DNA of 37,479 nucleotides from an uncultured Bacillota bacterium (GTDB lineage Bacteria > Bacillota > Sulfobacillia > JAMDAP01). This document shows, in pieces, positions 14,253-37,479 of the stretch (position 1 is the first letter of the stretch; each line of letters starts with the position of its first letter). The notes under the pieces were generated by a model. It searched no databases and was not told the DNA's origin. It saw only the letters and a program-made list of their open reading frames with translations. Where the stretch lies: contig CALMNP010000213.1 of the NCBI GenBank assembly GCA_937868875.1, positions 1 through 37,479 of the forward strand, read 5' to 3'. Position numbers and translations under genes: made by a program.

Positions 14253-14623
14253 CGCAAGCCTGCGGCGCGTCAGCAAGCCTCCAAAAGCCCGTCGCGTTTT
14301 GAACTCCCGGTTCGAATAAACCAGGTGACGACAAGGATCTGGGCCTATGGGAACGGGGGTATCCCTGTCCGTCGGGGCGGCGGACTCCCCCAGCACAGGA
14401 CGTTCCGCTGACGCGAAGAGATGCAAGAGGACTTATCAACAAGGTTATCCCCAGGCTGTGCACATCCGAAGGCTTGTTTGGCTTACAGAATGTGGCTCCG
14501 GTCAACCGCAGGCAGAACGGTTCGGGGCCTGCCGCCGCAGGCCTTGGCGGCGGCGCCCCAGCAGGAAACAGGCTCGTACAGGCGGAAATGCGAGGAAAAG
14601 GCCAGCAACGAGGAGGCGGCGGC

Positions 14624-15574
14624 ATGACTCAGGTGCGCGAACTGGCAACGGCCGTGGAGCAGAACATTCAGCAGGTGATGGTGGGCAAGCGCCGCGAGAT
14701 TCAGTATGTGCTGGTGGCGCTGCTGGCCGGCGGACACGTTCTTGTGGAGGATGTTCCCGGCGTTGGCAAGACCACGCTGGTGAGGGCCCTGGCTCGTTCG
14801 CTGGGCTGCCAATTCCGCCGCATTCAGTTCACCCCGGACCTGCTGCCATCCGACGTCACCGGGGTCTCCGTTTTCAACCAGGGCACCGGCCAGTTTGAGT
14901 TCCGGCCGGGCCCCATCTTCGGTCAGGTGGTACTGGCGGACGAGATCAACAGGACCTCGCCCAAGACGCAATCCGCCCTGCTGGAAAGCATGGAGGAAGG
15001 CCAGGTGACCGTGGACGGCGTCACCCACCCGCTGCCGCGCCCCTTCCTGGTCCTGGCCACACAGAACCCCATTGAGTACGAGGGAACCTTCCCCCTGCCG
15101 GAGGCCCAACTGGACCGCTTCCTGCTGCGGCTGCAGATCGGCTACCCGCGTCCGGAGGAGGAGCGCCTGATCGTGGAGCGCTCGCGGCAGTTGCCGTTGG
15201 AGAGGCTGCAGCCCGTGGCTCAGTCGGAGGGCGTCCTGCAGGCGCAGGCCGAGGTGGCCGAAGTATTCGTGGAACCCTCGGTGCAGGACTACATTGTGCG
15301 ACTGGTCCAGCGCACACGCCAGCATCCGGACGTCTATCTGGGTGCGAGCCCGCGCGGCTCCATCGCCCTCTCCCGGTCCGCTCAGGCCCTGGCCTTGATC
15401 CGCGGGCGCAATTACGTCGCCCCGGACGACGTCAAGGAGCTGGCGCCTGTAACCCTGGCGCACCGCCTCATCCTCAAGCCCGAATCGCGGTTTTACGGCG
15501 GAACGCCGGAGAAAGTGCTGGCCGACGTTCTGTCCCAGGTGCCCGTCCCGGTGGAGACGGCCCATGCGCGGTAG
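14624..15574 (+). CDS. MoxR family AAA ATPase
   Basis: GGHVLVEDVPGVGKTTLVRALARSLG, DEINRTSPKTQSALLESMEEGQVT, ATQNPIEYEGTFPLPEAQLDRF. ATG at 14624 is a better start than 14474. Confidence 0.92.
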   Translation: MTQVRELATAVEQNIQQVMVGKRREIQYVLVALLAGGHVLVEDVPGVGKTTLVRALARSLGCQFRRIQFTPDLLPSDVTGVSVFNQGTGQFEFRPGPIFGQVVLADEINRTSPKTQSALLESMEEGQVTVDGVTHPLPRPFLVLATQNPIEYEGTFPLPEAQLDRFLLRLQIGYPRPEEERLIVERSRQLPLERLQPVAQSEGVLQAQAEVAEVFVEPSVQDYIVRLVQRTRQHPDVYLGASPRGSIALSRSAQALALIRGRNYVAPDDVKELAPVTLAHRLILKPESRFYGGTPEKVLADVLSQVPVPVETAHAR

Positions 15575-16841
15575 GCTGCGGCACGAGCGGACGCAACCGT
15601 GGTCCGTCACCGGCGGCCGGGCTCCGGCCCGGCTCTCCCGGCTCTCCCTGCGGGACTGGCACCTGCCCCTGCTGGCCGTGGGCGCCTTCATCTTCGCCCG
15701 GCTCAGCGGCGGGGCCCTGCCCTGGTTCCTGTTCTATGCCGTTACCGGACTCCTTCTCGTCTCCTGGCTCTGGACCCGCCACCTCCTGCGCAACCTGGCC
15801 TGCCGCTGGGACATCCCCTCCAACTCGCTCACGGTGGGGGAGACCTCTGAGGTGCGGCTTCGTCTCTACAACGAAAGCTGGCTGCCGGCCACCTGGCTGG
15901 AGGCGACCCACCAGGCGGCCCTGGGCGAGGGAAGCTCGTTGGCCGGCGCCGTGCCGTCCCTGGGCAGCCTGGTGCTGACCCTGCCCGTGACCGCGGCGCG
16001 GCGTGGCTTCTTCCCCGCCGGCAGGCTCGACGTCGCTCTGGGAGACCCCCTGGGGGTCTTCACCGCACGCCGCCTGCTGGTCTCCGACCGGCACCTGACG
16101 GTGTATCCCCGCGCCCTGAGGGTCGGCCGCCTGCCCCTGGCCCTGCGCCAGCCCTACGGGCATACGCGGACGCACAGGCACGCCCAGGAGGACCTCACCA
16201 GCGTCGCCGAGGTGCGGCCCTTCCGCACCGGCGACAGCCCACGTCGCATCCACTGGAAGGCCACGGCCCACCGGGGAGAACTGCAGGTGCGCGAGTACGA
16301 ACTGGCGGCCACCACCGAGGTCCACCTGATACTCGACCTGTACGGCCGGGGGCATCACGGGGACGGTCCGGACTCCAGCCTGGAACGGTCGGTGGAGGTC
16401 ACAGCCTCCCTGGCCAGGACCATCCTGGAGCAGGGACTGGCCGTCGGCGTGGTGGGCCACGGCGCGAAACGCCTGACCGTGCCTCCCGGCCGCGGACTGC
16501 GGCAGCTGCGGCGCATTCTGGAATCGCTGGTGGCGGTGCAGGCCGATGGCGTGCTGCCCCTGGCCCATGCCCTTGCCGGCGAGAGCCGGTCCTTCTCACC
16601 CCGCTCCACGGTCATCGTGGTCACGGCGGCCCTGGGCCGGGACCTGGTGGCGTCTCTGCTCACCCTCCGCGGCGAGGGGCACGGGCTTTTGGTCGCAGCC
16701 GTGCGCCCGGGCGGTCCGGCGGAGGATGAGTGGGCGGCCGCCCTTGGAGCGCTCCAGGCGGAATCCATCCCCACCCTGGTGGTGCACGAGGCCGCGGACC
16801 TGGTACCCCATCCCTTGTCGCCGGCGGGGGTGAGGGTATGA
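15564..16841 (+). CDS. DUF58 domain-containing protein
   Basis: Two N-terminal TMs and FRTGDSPRRIHWKATAHRGELQVREYE DUF58 signature; follows moxR. Confidence 0.9.
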   Translation: MRGRLRHERTQPWSVTGGRAPARLSRLSLRDWHLPLLAVGAFIFARLSGGALPWFLFYAVTGLLLVSWLWTRHLLRNLACRWDIPSNSLTVGETSEVRLRLYNESWLPATWLEATHQAALGEGSSLAGAVPSLGSLVLTLPVTAARRGFFPAGRLDVALGDPLGVFTARRLLVSDRHLTVYPRALRVGRLPLALRQPYGHTRTHRHAQEDLTSVAEVRPFRTGDSPRRIHWKATAHRGELQVREYELAATTEVHLILDLYGRGHHGDGPDSSLERSVEVTASLARTILEQGLAVGVVGHGAKRLTVPPGRGLRQLRRILESLVAVQADGVLPLAHALAGESRSFSPRSTVIVVTAALGRDLVASLLTLRGEGHGLLVAAVRPGGPAEDEWAAALGALQAESIPTLVVHEAADLVPHPLSPAGVRV

Positions 16842-19102
16842 GGCTGGAACTGGAGAGGCGACAGGGCCTTGCCCTGTCGGTCCTGGCGGCGGGGCTGTTC
16901 GCCGCGCTGACCTATTCCCTGGTGCTGGGTCTCACCCTGGCACCCTACGTCCGGTTCCTCGTCCCTCTGGCCTTCCTCACCACCCTGGCCGGCACGACCG
17001 CCGTCCGCCGGCCCTGGCCGGTGGTGACGGGGCTCGGGCTGCTGACCGTGCTGGCCACGGGTATGCTCGCCCTGCCCCAGGTGCGCCCCTGGCTGAACCT
17101 GGTCTGGGAGGGGTTCGACCTGCTCCTCACCTCCGCCGGTCAGGCCGGTCCACCGCCGCATCTGGCCGCCCTGGAAGCTCTGGCTGCAGGAATTGTATTC
17201 ATCCCCGGCGGCCTTCTGGCCGGCTGGGCGGCAGCCTGGCTGCTGTGGCGCCGCGGCACCGCCCTGCCGCTGCTGCTCCTCGGCGTGCTGGTGCTGGGGG
17301 CGCAGTGGCTTTGGTTCGTGGAGTCGGCGCACCCGGCCATGGTTGCCTACTGGCTCCTCTGGGTGATGATTGCGGCCCTGACGCAGACGGGCCTTCGCCG
17401 GGCCGCCTGGCGCCAGGCCGGCTCCCGCCTCTTCGAGCCCCCGGCGGGCCTGGTGTTGGCCGTGTCCCTGGCCCTGGCGGCAGCCCTCACCGTCATCGGA
17501 GTCGCTTTGCCCAACCGCTTTGAGCCGGTCAGCCTGGAGTCCGTGTCGCGGGCTGTGGTGAACGCACTGCCGAGCCTGGAAGGCCTGCGCGGCGCGGCAG
17601 CGGGGTCGTCGCGCTTTCGGTTCAGCCTGACCCGCACCGGATTCGCCCGCAGCCAGGAGCGCCTCGGCGGACCGGTCCGAACCGACGACCGCGAGGCCCT
17701 GACCCTCCGCATCCTGGGGGACAGACTGCCGGCCACCCTCTACCTCCGGGGCTCCGTGGATTCGGAGTACACGGGCCAGGGCTGGCGGACGCCGGAAGAC
17801 GTGCAGGGCGAGAGCACCCGGGGCGACAGCACCAAGGTCATCCCAGGGGAACGGTTCGTCACCCTTCCCTCCACCCCGGCGCAGGTAACCCTCACCGTGC
17901 AGAACCTGCGCACCAACACCATCTTCGCTCCCACCGGTCTGCACCGGCTCTCGGTGCCGGGCGGCTCCTACCTGCGGGACTCCCTCGGCAACCTCACGGC
18001 GGAGCGTCCCCTGGGCCGGGAGGAAACCTACCAGGAGCAGGTGGAGGTGGCCTGGGACAACGCCGGCCTGCTGGCCAGGACCGACCGGGTGGAGCCCACC
18101 AACCGGGACCTGGCGCCCTTCCTCCGCCTGCCTCCCGCCCTGCCGCCCCGCGTGGGCGGCCTGGCGCAGGAAGTGACCAGGGGGGCGACCAACCCCTACA
18201 ACCAGGCCCTGATGGTGGAGGATTATCTGCGCGGTCTCCCCTACAGCCTGGACGTCCCGGCGCCGCCGGCCGGCCGTGACTTCGCTGACTACTTCCTGTT
18301 TGACCTGCAGCGCGGCTACTGCACCTACTCGTCCACCGCCATGGCGGTCATGCTGCGCACCCTGGGCATCCCGTCACGCTGGGTGCAGGGTTTCGCCGTG
18401 CCCCTGGACAGCGGCTCGGGAACCTACGCCGCCCGCAACAGTCAGGCGCACGCCTGGGTGGAGGCCTACTTCTCCGGGTACGGCTGGGTGGCTTTCGATC
18501 CCACCCCACGTTTCACACCGCCAGCGCGCACTCAGCCGGCGCCGGTGGAAGAGGCGACGGGCACAGGCAACGGGGCGACCGGCTCCACCGGGACGGGAGG
18601 ACCCGGCCGCAACCGCGGCCTGGATGAGGAGGCACTGCCGCCGGGGAGCCAGGTCCAGGCCCAGATTCCCGTGTCCCATGAGGGTTTCCGGCCCTGGACT
18701 CTGCTTGCGGCCGCATTCAAAGTGACCTCGGTCCTGGCTCTGCTGGCTGGTCTGGGCCTGGTGGTCCTCCGCTGGTGGCGGGAGCGTCTGCCTGCCGGCA
18801 ACGGCAAGGCGCGGCTGCGCGCCTTCTTCCGGAACCTGGAGGGACTGCTCAGCCGTTTCGACCACGGGCGTAGGCAGGACCAGACTCCCGAGGAGTGGCT
18901 TCGCGCCCTGGGCTACCGCTGGCCCGACCTGAAGGGCGACATGCAGGCCCTCTCGCTGGCCTACCAGGACACGCGCTATGGCCTGCGGACGCCGGCGGCC
19001 GAAGCCCTGAACGGCGCCGACCGCCTCTGGGCGGCATTGCGCCGCCGCCTGCTGGCAGAGACTTCCTGGGCGGGGTACCTGTGGCGACGGTTCAGGCCGT
19101 GA
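16838..19102 (+). CDS. Transglutaminase-like (TgpA-type) membrane protein
   Basis: N-terminal multi-TM; GYCTYSSTAMAVMLRTLGIPSRWVQGF...NSQAHAWVEAYFSGYGWVAFDPTP Cys-His-Asp triad; start ATG 16838 overlaps the DUF58 stop. Confidence 0.92.
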   Translation: MRLELERRQGLALSVLAAGLFAALTYSLVLGLTLAPYVRFLVPLAFLTTLAGTTAVRRPWPVVTGLGLLTVLATGMLALPQVRPWLNLVWEGFDLLLTSAGQAGPPPHLAALEALAAGIVFIPGGLLAGWAAAWLLWRRGTALPLLLLGVLVLGAQWLWFVESAHPAMVAYWLLWVMIAALTQTGLRRAAWRQAGSRLFEPPAGLVLAVSLALAAALTVIGVALPNRFEPVSLESVSRAVVNALPSLEGLRGAAAGSSRFRFSLTRTGFARSQERLGGPVRTDDREALTLRILGDRLPATLYLRGSVDSEYTGQGWRTPEDVQGESTRGDSTKVIPGERFVTLPSTPAQVTLTVQNLRTNTIFAPTGLHRLSVPGGSYLRDSLGNLTAERPLGREETYQEQVEVAWDNAGLLARTDRVEPTNRDLAPFLRLPPALPPRVGGLAQEVTRGATNPYNQALMVEDYLRGLPYSLDVPAPPAGRDFADYFLFDLQRGYCTYSSTAMAVMLRTLGIPSRWVQGFAVPLDSGSGTYAARNSQAHAWVEAYFSGYGWVAFDPTPRFTPPARTQPAPVEEATGTGNGATGSTGTGGPGRNRGLDEEALPPGSQVQAQIPVSHEGFRPWTLLAAAFKVTSVLALLAGLGLVVLRWWRERLPAGNGKARLRAFFRNLEGLLSRFDHGRRQDQTPEEWLRALGYRWPDLKGDMQALSLAYQDTRYGLRTPAAEALNGADRLWAALRRRLLAETSWAGYLWRRFRP

Positions 19103-34860: not shown

Positions 34861-35874
34861 TCAGAAGCTCAGATCGACGGGGTCCTTGAGGAACTGGGTC
34901 AGGACCGCGACCGCGCCCTCCAGATCCTCCACGTCCACCACCTCGGTCGGACCGAAGCGGTAGCGGGTGGGAATGGACAGGCCAGAGGCGGGGATGCCGC
35001 CGTGGCTCAGCTGAACCACGCCCAGCTCACTTCCGGCGGTCTCCAGAACCTCGTACTGGACGGACTTTCCCGCCTTCTCCGCTGCGGCGGCCAGGGCCCG
35101 GCGCAGGGCCGGATAGGCCATGCCCGACTGGTCCTGCACCTTGATGGCAGGACCCTTGCCCAGGGAGACCTCCATTCGCCTGGCCTCGGGCGTATCGCCG
35201 GTCGCGGTGGCATCCAGAACCAGGGCCAGGTCAGGGTCGACGCCGAAGGCGGCCGGTCTGGCTCCGCGGCTGCCCACCTCCTTCTGGACGGTGAACGCCA
35301 CCAGCACCTCGTGCGGGGTGGCGCGCAGGCCCCGGAGGGTCTGCAGCAGCACGGCCGCGGCGCCGCGCGAGCCCACGGCCCGCCCGGTCACGCGGTGCCC
35401 AAGGACGGCCGGCGCGCGGTCGAAGGCGGCCACGTCGCCGGGGCGCACCGTCTTGCGCGCCTCCTCCTCGGAGGCCGCGCCGATGTCGATGAACAGCTTG
35501 TCTATCTTGAGGTCACCGGGCTTCTCCACTGGCTCAGCATCGATGACGCCCAAGGCCCCGCCCGTGAAGCGTATGCGCTGCCCCAGGCAGACATGGGGGT
35601 CCAGGCGCCCCATGGGGCTGAAGCGGAGGAAGCCGTTCTTCTCGACGTTGGTCACAACCAGGCCGACCTCGTCCAGGTGGGCCATCAGCAGCACCTTGTG
35701 GCCCCCCTTGGAGGCACGGCCCCTGGGGCCTGTGCGGGCAAGCAGGTTGCCCATGGCGTCGACGCGGACGTCCTCAGCCAGCCCGGCGAGTTCCTTCTTC
35801 ACCAGTTCGCGGACCGCATCCTCGCTGCCCGAGGGTCCGGTGGCTTCGGCGAGCTTCAGCAGCATGTCCTTCAT
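34861..35874 (-). CDS. M42 family peptidase paralog with degenerate active site
   Basis: M42 architecture (MAHLDEVGLVV, VQKEVGSRGA, LSIPTRYRF) with substitutions at expected catalytic/metal positions. Confidence 0.87.
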   Translation of the reverse strand: MKDMLLKLAEATGPSGSEDAVRELVKKELAGLAEDVRVDAMGNLLARTGPRGRASKGGHKVLLMAHLDEVGLVVTNVEKNGFLRFSPMGRLDPHVCLGQRIRFTGGALGVIDAEPVEKPGDLKIDKLFIDIGAASEEEARKTVRPGDVAAFDRAPAVLGHRVTGRAVGSRGAAAVLLQTLRGLRATPHEVLVAFTVQKEVGSRGARPAAFGVDPDLALVLDATATGDTPEARRMEVSLGKGPAIKVQDQSGMAYPALRRALAAAAEKAGKSVQYEVLETAGSELGVVQLSHGGIPASGLSIPTRYRFGPTEVVDVEDLEGAVAVLTQFLKDPVDLSF

Positions 35875-36974
35875 AGCGTCAGATCCCCCTTCGCCAGGTG
35901 GTCGAGAATGAGCGAGAGCAAAGCCTGAGCGTTGGCGTAATCGTCCAGGCTGATGAGCTGTGCGGGCGCGTGGATGTAGCGGGTCGGCAGGGAGATGGCC
36001 AGGGTGGGAATGCCGGCACGGCTCTTGTGGATGGAACCGGCGTCGTTGCCACCCAGGGTCACCCGTTTGAACTGAAAGGGAATCTTGTGCTTCTCAGCCA
36101 GATCCGCCACCTGGCGTACCAGCCTGATGGGCGCGATGGTGAAGGAGTCCACCAGGGTCAGGGCCGGACCCCGGCCGAACCAGGTGGACTGGCCGTGCAG
36201 CGGGTTGAAGGGCATGTCGTTGCAGGATGTGCCCTCCAGCACAATGGTCAGGTCCGGATCGACGGCATGAGCCGCCACCCGCGCCCCGCGCAGCCCAACC
36301 TCCTCCTGAACCGTAAACGCCCCCACCACCTCCAGGCCGTAGCGCCCCACCAGGGATTCGGCCAGGATGGCGCATCCTGCCCGGTCGTCGAAGGACTTGG
36401 CCTTGGCGGCATTCCGGCCGATCTCTTCGTAGCGGGTGGCGAAGATGGCACGGTCGCCTACCTTGACGTGGCGCTCCGCCTCATCGCGGGAGGTGGCGCC
36501 GATGTCGATGTACATCTCGTCGTAGGGGATGGGCTTCTCCCAATCCCCCCGCTCCTGCAGGTGGATGGGTTTGGCGCCGATCACGCCGGGCAGGCGCCTG
36601 TCGCCCACGAAGACGGCCTTGGAGACCAGGACCCGGTCGTCGATTCCGCCTACCTTTCCGAAGCGGAGCAGCCCGTCCTTGCCGATGCGCTGCACCATCA
36701 GGCCGCACTCGTCCATATGGGCCGCCAGCATGACCCGCAGGGGGCGTTCGCCCTCCGGGCCCTTCACGGTCCGGACCTTGCCGCGGCGGGGCGCCTGTTG
36801 CGTTGCGAAGAGGTTGCCGATGGTGTCGGACCGGATCTCGTCCGCCAGACCCTCGATGGTCTCCCTCACGACGCGGCGGATCTCCACCTCGTCGCCGGAC
36901 ACCCCGGCCGCTTCCGTGAATTTCTGCAGGACCGGTCTGGTCACGGCCGGTCTCGGTTCCGCCGGTTGCGTCAC
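35871..36974 (-). CDS. M42 family aminopeptidase (intact active-site motifs)
   Basis: AAHMDECGLMV, KSFDDRAGCAILAE, VQEEVGLRGA, ISLPTRYIHAPAQ. GTG 36974 start overlaps the upstream stop. Confidence 0.9.
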   Translation of the reverse strand: MTQPAEPRPAVTRPVLQKFTEAAGVSGDEVEIRRVVRETIEGLADEIRSDTIGNLFATQQAPRRGKVRTVKGPEGERPLRVMLAAHMDECGLMVQRIGKDGLLRFGKVGGIDDRVLVSKAVFVGDRRLPGVIGAKPIHLQERGDWEKPIPYDEMYIDIGATSRDEAERHVKVGDRAIFATRYEEIGRNAAKAKSFDDRAGCAILAESLVGRYGLEVVGAFTVQEEVGLRGARVAAHAVDPDLTIVLEGTSCNDMPFNPLHGQSTWFGRGPALTLVDSFTIAPIRLVRQVADLAEKHKIPFQFKRVTLGGNDAGSIHKSRAGIPTLAISLPTRYIHAPAQLISLDDYANAQALLSLILDHLAKGDLTL

Positions 36975-37479
36975 GCCCACACCAGTCCCTTCACGAACTC
37001 CTCGTCCACCCGGGAGACGAAGCGCGCCAGCAGGCGGCCGGCCCGGGCCACGTTCTCCAGCGAGAGCGTCTCGACGGAGGTATGCATGTACTTGATGGGC
37101 ACGGAGAGGACGGCCGTGGGAACACCGGCCGCCACCACCTGCATGGACCAGGCGTCCGTGCCCGTGTGTCCGGGCGCCGCCTCGATCTGCACGTTCATGT
37201 CCAGCTCCCGGGCCGCCTCGCGCAGGGCCTCGAAGACGCGGGGGCTGATATTCGGCCCCATGGTCAGGACCGGCCCCCTGGCCGGATCCCAGGTCTCGTC
37301 CTCCTCGGTCCCGGGCTGCTGGGCGAAGGTCACGTCCACAGCGATGGCCACGTCGGGGGCCAGTTGGTAGGTCACGGTCTCTGCACCAGCTGAGGTGATC
37401 TCCTCGGCCGTGGTGGCCACCGCCAGGACCTCCGCCTGGAACTGCGCGCGCTCCAGCTCCTGGAGGCACTCGTAGAGGA
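36971..37479 (-). CDS. M42 family aminopeptidase, third paralog (5' end truncated by window edge)
   Basis: AVATTAEEITSAGA, DVTFAQQPGTEEDETWDPARGPVLTMGPNIS, GHTGTDAWSMQVVAAGVPTAVLSVPIKYMHT; open at window end. Confidence 0.85.
   Translation of the reverse strand, partial: LYECLQELERAQFQAEVLAVATTAEEITSAGAETVTYQLAPDVAIAVDVTFAQQPGTEEDETWDPARGPVLTMGPNISPRVFEALREAARELDMNVQIEAAPGHTGTDAWSMQVVAAGVPTAVLSVPIKYMHTSVETLSLENVARAGRLLARFVSRVDEEFVKGLVWA

Follow-up and report, generated by a model that had tools for sequence, protein, structure and literature searches.

Recurrent, position-specific loss of catalytic residues in the third gene of a conserved M42 aminopeptidase trio

Introduction

Why would a bacterium keep a full-length M42 aminopeptidase paralog that has lost active-site residues, directly beside related genes that retain theirs? 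Accounts of M42 peptidases usually present them as homododecamers. The question is raised by a 37,479-nucleotide stretch of DNA from an uncultured Bacillota bacterium (contig CALMNP010000213.1; this whole stretch is referred to below as the window), near one end of which three M42 genes lie in a row on the minus strand. The original prediction, made from the letters of this stretch, was that the last of the three encodes a pseudoenzyme subunit, perhaps a regulatory or structural partner in a hetero-oligomeric TET-like particle.

Results

An M42 gene trio with a full-length third member

The first gene of the cluster, M42-1 (M1; 36971..37477, minus strand; Pfam 1.5e-33), is truncated by the contig end, leaving a C-terminal half that retains E197, E198, D220 and H307. 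It is followed by M42-2 (M2; 35871..36974, minus strand), an M42 peptidase with a GTG start (Pfam 6e-83) whose signature HDDEEEH agrees with the earlier description of the adjoining paralog as intact, and then by M42-3 (M3; 34861..35874, minus strand), an uninterrupted, full-length frame of 337 aa with an ATG start. Both junctions are 4-nt stop-start overlaps, the stop of M1 overlapping the start of M2 (GTGA) and the stop of M2 overlapping the start of M3 (ATGA), and a search for a promoter found none. Downstream of M3 are genes for a metallo-beta-lactamase-fold protein, a PilZ-domain protein, AddB and AddA. The source genome, assembled as 475 contigs, has further M42 genes on other contigs. 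Elsewhere in the window (14483-17944, minus strand), three ORFs of 364-529 aa between cytochrome c/thioredoxin genes and the gene for TatC had no Pfam match at 1e-5.

By both fold and sequence, M3 belongs to the M42 family. The Pfam M42 model (PF05343, 8.1e-67) covers residues 55-322, scoring 225.8 bits where the cut-off is 23.2, and the closest solved structures, the TmPep1050 entries 4p6y and 3isx, match over the entire length at about 1e-61. An AlphaFold model of the protein (pLDDT 72) superposes on 4p6y with a TM-score of 0.83, although it is poor at the active-site loops, with residues 198-204, 225-242 and 279-293 below pLDDT 50. Its place after M1 and M2, its top-scoring profile (that of M3) and its top structures (3isx/4p6y) all mark the protein as the TM1050-type member of the trio (degenerate, TmPep1050-type). 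GC content by codon position (0.75/0.47/0.88) equals that of the neighbouring genes.

Loss of the general base and two metal ligands

We describe the M42 centre in what we take to be TmPep1050 numbering, as H60, D62, D168, E197, E198, D220 and H307, the roles of these residues being established in the literature. Titles of PDB entries confirm the TmPep1050 mutant names H60A, D62A and H307A. When aligned with 93 other third-position paralogs, the window M3 has H, D, G, K, E, D and F at these seven sites. Three motifs are replaced (all on the minus strand), as was originally noted and as re-reading of the codons bears out: AVGSRGA stands in place of S/A-x-D-D-R-x-G at 35359..35379, turning the bridging metal ligand Asp168 into Gly (GTGGGCTCGCGC, encoding V-G-S-R); VQKEVG stands in place of VQEEVG at 35272..35289, turning the catalytic Glu197 into Lys while retaining the metal ligand Glu198 (GTCCAGAAGGAG, encoding V-Q-K-E); and TRYRFG stands in place of TRYIHx at 34951..34968, turning the metal ligand His307 into Phe (ACCCGCTACCGCTTC, encoding T-R-Y-R-F). 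The HLDEVG segment (35662..35679, minus strand), with His60 and Asp62, and the DATATGD segment (35194..35214, minus strand), with the metal ligand Asp220, had been reported to remain, and the alignment keeps both, as well as the second Glu of the catalytic pair.

Among the five metal ligands (H60, D168, E198, D220 and H307), the window M3 therefore has H60, E198 and D220 but Gly for D168 and Phe for H307, and the catalytic Glu (E212 of PhTET2, E197 of TmPep1050) is Lys. Such a residue set means that the general base is gone, as are two metal ligands, one bridging and one terminal. Alternative residues supplying the ligands would have spoken against a pseudoenzyme, and in the alignment the replaced motifs hold no substitute acidic residue or His. 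Judged from these residues, it is near certain that the window M3 is catalytically inactive.

A trio in fixed order across class and phylum

The search covered 154 class genomes and a 399-genome sample of the phylum; we fetched the matching loci, located their M42 frames by six-frame ORF search and classed these frames with three profiles. Loci from the phylum sample were picked for their similarity (1e-60) to the window M3, a criterion that could miss highly degenerate third genes elsewhere in the phylum; a contig-level similarity scan for relatives of the window gave distant ones only. Nearly all class loci not truncated by contig ends carry their M42 genes in the order M1-M2-M3. So do 94 of 100 additional phylum loci, and the six exceptions are explained by an additional copy of M2, a split frame or contig ends. 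The trio also has counterparts in Thermotoga, among whose structures M3 best matches TM1050, M2 best matches TM1049 (2fvg) and M1 best matches 1vho. The numbers TM1050 and TM1049 are given in PDB titles; 1vho is presumably TM1048, and we take the genes TM1048, TM1049 and TM1050 to be adjacent in Thermotoga. These results establish M1-M2-M3 as an old trio in fixed order. In the sole other sampled genome of the window's order (G001, 99% complete), the trio is apparently missing, with one weak M42 match at 8e-13.

Catalytic residues are lost at the third position

Comparing the three positions revealed that, within the trio, loss of catalytic residues is confined to the third. The catalytic set of M1 was retained in all readable copies, comprising 61 complete and 26 partial ones in the first sample and 95 of 95 in the second. 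M2, in which Glu is the normal state at site 220, had HDDEEEH in 87/90 frames of the first sample and 93/98 of the second, the exceptions being two copies with Asp220, one with D62E, and partial or split frames. M3 had the canonical H-D-D-E-E-D-H in 79 of the 94 copies of the first sample and in all 100 further copies from the phylum, which speaks against chance as the source of the window's substitutions. Degenerate third genes were found in 12 genomes of the class, spread over six families (the window's genome, G000, along with G022, G054, G142, G140, G141, G041, G144, G143, G044, G038 and G050), and the remaining non-canonical rows are two fragments and a single E198K in G373. In this last genome (locus L143), the third gene has only the metal-ligand Glu198 changed to Lys and is otherwise canonical, which may represent an early-stage loss or a sequencing error.

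The replacing residues vary among the degenerate copies: Gly, Lys and Phe in the window, two Gly with Asp168 kept in family f23, and Ser and Leu in G038, while the third genes of G143 and G050 also lack His60 and Asp168. Such differences fit separate losses or long divergence alike. The G050 locus (L114) carries a highly divergent trio in which M3 is without nearly all catalytic residues (VPMDE, KALASR, QSELG, VGAV) and M1 and M2 are intact. With the base and two metal ligands gone from the window copy, and with M3 degenerate beside two intact neighbours in 11 other genomes of the class, the pseudoenzyme assignment of the original prediction is strongly supported. A search of the literature accessible to us for M42 pseudoenzymes found nothing relevant; the new part is the recurrent, position-specific loss at M3.

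We also observed a change in M1 that accompanies degenerate third genes. In 9 of 11 genomes with a degenerate M3, the Gln that normally precedes the catalytic Glu of M1 is replaced, compared with 1 of about 168 genomes whose M3 is intact. Since most of these nine genomes are related, the pattern may reflect shared ancestry rather than co-adaptation. In the window's M1 (36971-37477, minus strand), the residue before the catalytic Glu is Ala (TAEEI, as against QEE), at a site where Gln is nearly invariant elsewhere, and Symbiobacterium-like genomes, like the rest of the nine, have Gly there.

How many losses

An rpoB tree rejects a single clade of degenerate genomes (p-AU 4e-57), and at least three changes are required by its strongly supported branches. 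On this tree the window's order neighbours families f23 and f35, the Symbiobacterium-like clade, with support of 93, so the loss may be common to them, and the clearly separate losses are only those of G038, G050 and perhaps G044. Gene trees of M3, M2 and M1+M2 were also used to compare a shared with a separate loss in the window, and the completed AU tests were not significant. The window M3 sits on a long branch of the M3 gene tree (1.43).

Purifying selection on degenerate third genes of relatives

The dN/dS of homologs had been suggested as a check on the pseudoenzyme reading, and in relatives it falls at 0.17-0.34 for degenerate M3 (Nei-Gojobori method): 0.30-0.34 among G022, G142 and G054, 0.17 for G140 vs. 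G141, and 0.28 for G041 vs. G144. The corresponding M1 and M2 genes in these genomes gave 0.16-0.29 where available. Purifying selection on the degenerate third genes of relatives is thus clear, if slightly relaxed in one genus, where their values exceed those of their own M1 and M2 (0.30-0.34 vs. 0.18-0.29), a difference that also fits relaxed constraint. Degenerate M3 frames are also uninterrupted and retain the majority of M42 fold positions. The window M3 itself retains 59 of 73 near-invariant positions (at least 95% in intact M3), compared with 66 to 73 in intact copies, and its losses near the active site include window residues 168, 173, 198, 280, 282, 283 and 307. Within residues 78-146, a putative PDZ-like domain, 13 of 15 near-invariant positions are kept and both changes are conservative. 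Retention rather than decay is supported by dN/dS in the relatives and may extend to the window M3, which has no close kin.

Discussion

We consider it probable that the window M3 is a pseudo-aminopeptidase that has been retained to partner its two active paralogs, structurally or in a regulatory role, in a mixed TET-like particle. M1, M2 and M3 would be made together, as the stop-start overlaps suggest, and would assemble as dimers into such a particle, in which M3 may fill shell positions, set the stoichiometry or the geometry of entrance or chamber, or hold peptide ends, with hydrolysis left to M1 and M2. On the most parsimonious reading, the contribution of M3 within such a mixed particle would be partly structural in most species, and in some lineages only this structural part would be left. 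Its third place in a trio conserved across the phylum suggests that M3 probably persists as a non-cutting part of a shared particle.

Hetero-oligomerisation of the three proteins, the other part of the original prediction, is plausible, with indirect support from the fixed trio and its stop-start overlaps and from known M42 systems. In Pyrococcus horikoshii, whose PhTET1/2/3 share the M42 family and fold with M3, dimers of PhTET2 and PhTET3 co-assemble into heterododecamers of defined layout, and TET assembly from dimers is metal-dependent (PMC4220976); a word search of that paper found no mention of an inactive subunit, which sets PhTET apart from the window M3. The M42 paralogs YtoP and YsdC were cross-linked in Bacillus subtilis cells (PDB 9a5r), forming a heteromer of two gene products rather than three, with no inactive member claimed in the excerpt of the source available to us (PMC10090944). 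Since M42 assembly normally depends on the active-site metals, an M3 without its metal pair would form a homododecamer poorly and depend on partners. TmPep1050 (TM1050 of Thermotoga maritima; 3isx, 4p6y), the nearest relative of M3 to have been characterised, resembles the window M3 in that the trio partners match TM1049 and 1vho, but it retains every metal ligand along with the catalytic Glu, whereas the window M3 lacks three of the seven residues. Although it corresponds to the M3 position of Thermotoga, it acts alone as a leucine aminopeptidase in vitro (PMC3511314), so an intact M3 can be active without partners and the trio is not obligately hetero-oligomeric everywhere; no other evidence weighs as heavily against an obligate particle. 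We hold only tentatively, as something short of an even chance, the broader proposal that an obligate three-paralog M42 particle is conserved across the phylum and shared with Thermotoga, its third subunit having repeatedly turned into a dedicated non-catalytic one (for gating, assembly or peptide holding), mostly alongside the M1 Gln change.

The strongest rival, which we regard as unlikely, is that the inactive M3 works by itself outside M1 and M2, either as a homomer that binds or scavenges peptides or in some new non-hydrolytic job. A kept fold and purifying selection in relatives would be expected of such a protein too, and TM1050, TM1049 and 1vho each crystallised separately, meaning that homomers are possible; yet M3 remains tied into a trio whose start and stop codons overlap, and the loss of metal ligands should weaken a homododecamer, if the metal-dependent assembly of PhTET (PMC4220976) is a guide. 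Somewhat less probable again is that M3 is decaying, its activity dispensable because it is covered by M1, M2 and other M42 peptidases, and its frame open merely through recency. The long branch of the window M3, the M42 genes elsewhere in its genome and the slightly raised dN/dS in one degenerate genus would all fit decay, whereas full-length degenerate copies persist in three genera within one family and in two within another, and their dN/dS of 0.17-0.34, the neighbour-like GC by codon position and the 59/73 near-invariant positions kept all point the other way.

A different hydrolytic activity is improbable to a degree that places it well behind these two. Four of the seven catalytic-site residues remain, and an altered, perhaps single-metal site could in principle use His60, Glu198 and Asp220, but the general base is Lys, the bridging ligand is gone from both metal sites and the replaced motifs offer neither acid nor His; moreover, where relatives retain Asp168 they still lack both His307 and the base, and in G143 and G050 the losses extend to His60 and Asp168. 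An assembly or sequencing artefact of the metagenome bin, for which fragmentation into 475 contigs might speak, can be set aside given three separate in-frame substitutions (at least four bases) within an open 337-codon frame and like losses in the single-contig genomes G022 and G143.

The reading that we favour, a dead subunit within a mixed particle, has parallels in other self-compartmentalised proteases, inside which non-catalytic paralogs are kept, as with ClpP/ClpR and inactive proteasome beta subunits; the folds of these rings are unrelated to M42, and the likeness to M3 is one of analogy only. Closer to hand is G022, which is perhaps Symbiobacterium thermophilum. It has the same trio with a degenerate M3 that carries two Gly where the window M3 has Lys and Phe, the loss of Asp168 being additional in the window. 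For the M42 enzymes of S. thermophilum, PMC3511314 cites Kumaki 2011 for three aminopeptidases and has only SthPep1079 and SthPep1080 in its alignment. Should G022 indeed be that species, direct measurements on a degenerate M3 may already be available (Kumaki 2011).

The finding bears on why bacteria keep three M42 paralogs side by side: a trio fixed across the phylum, in which only one position repeatedly tolerates loss of the chemistry, argues that the three proteins function together as one machine. Degenerate third genes would offer natural dead subunits for probing subunit roles, as in proteasomes and Clp proteases, and recognising them would correct the annotation of proteins that databases call peptidases or endoglucanases.
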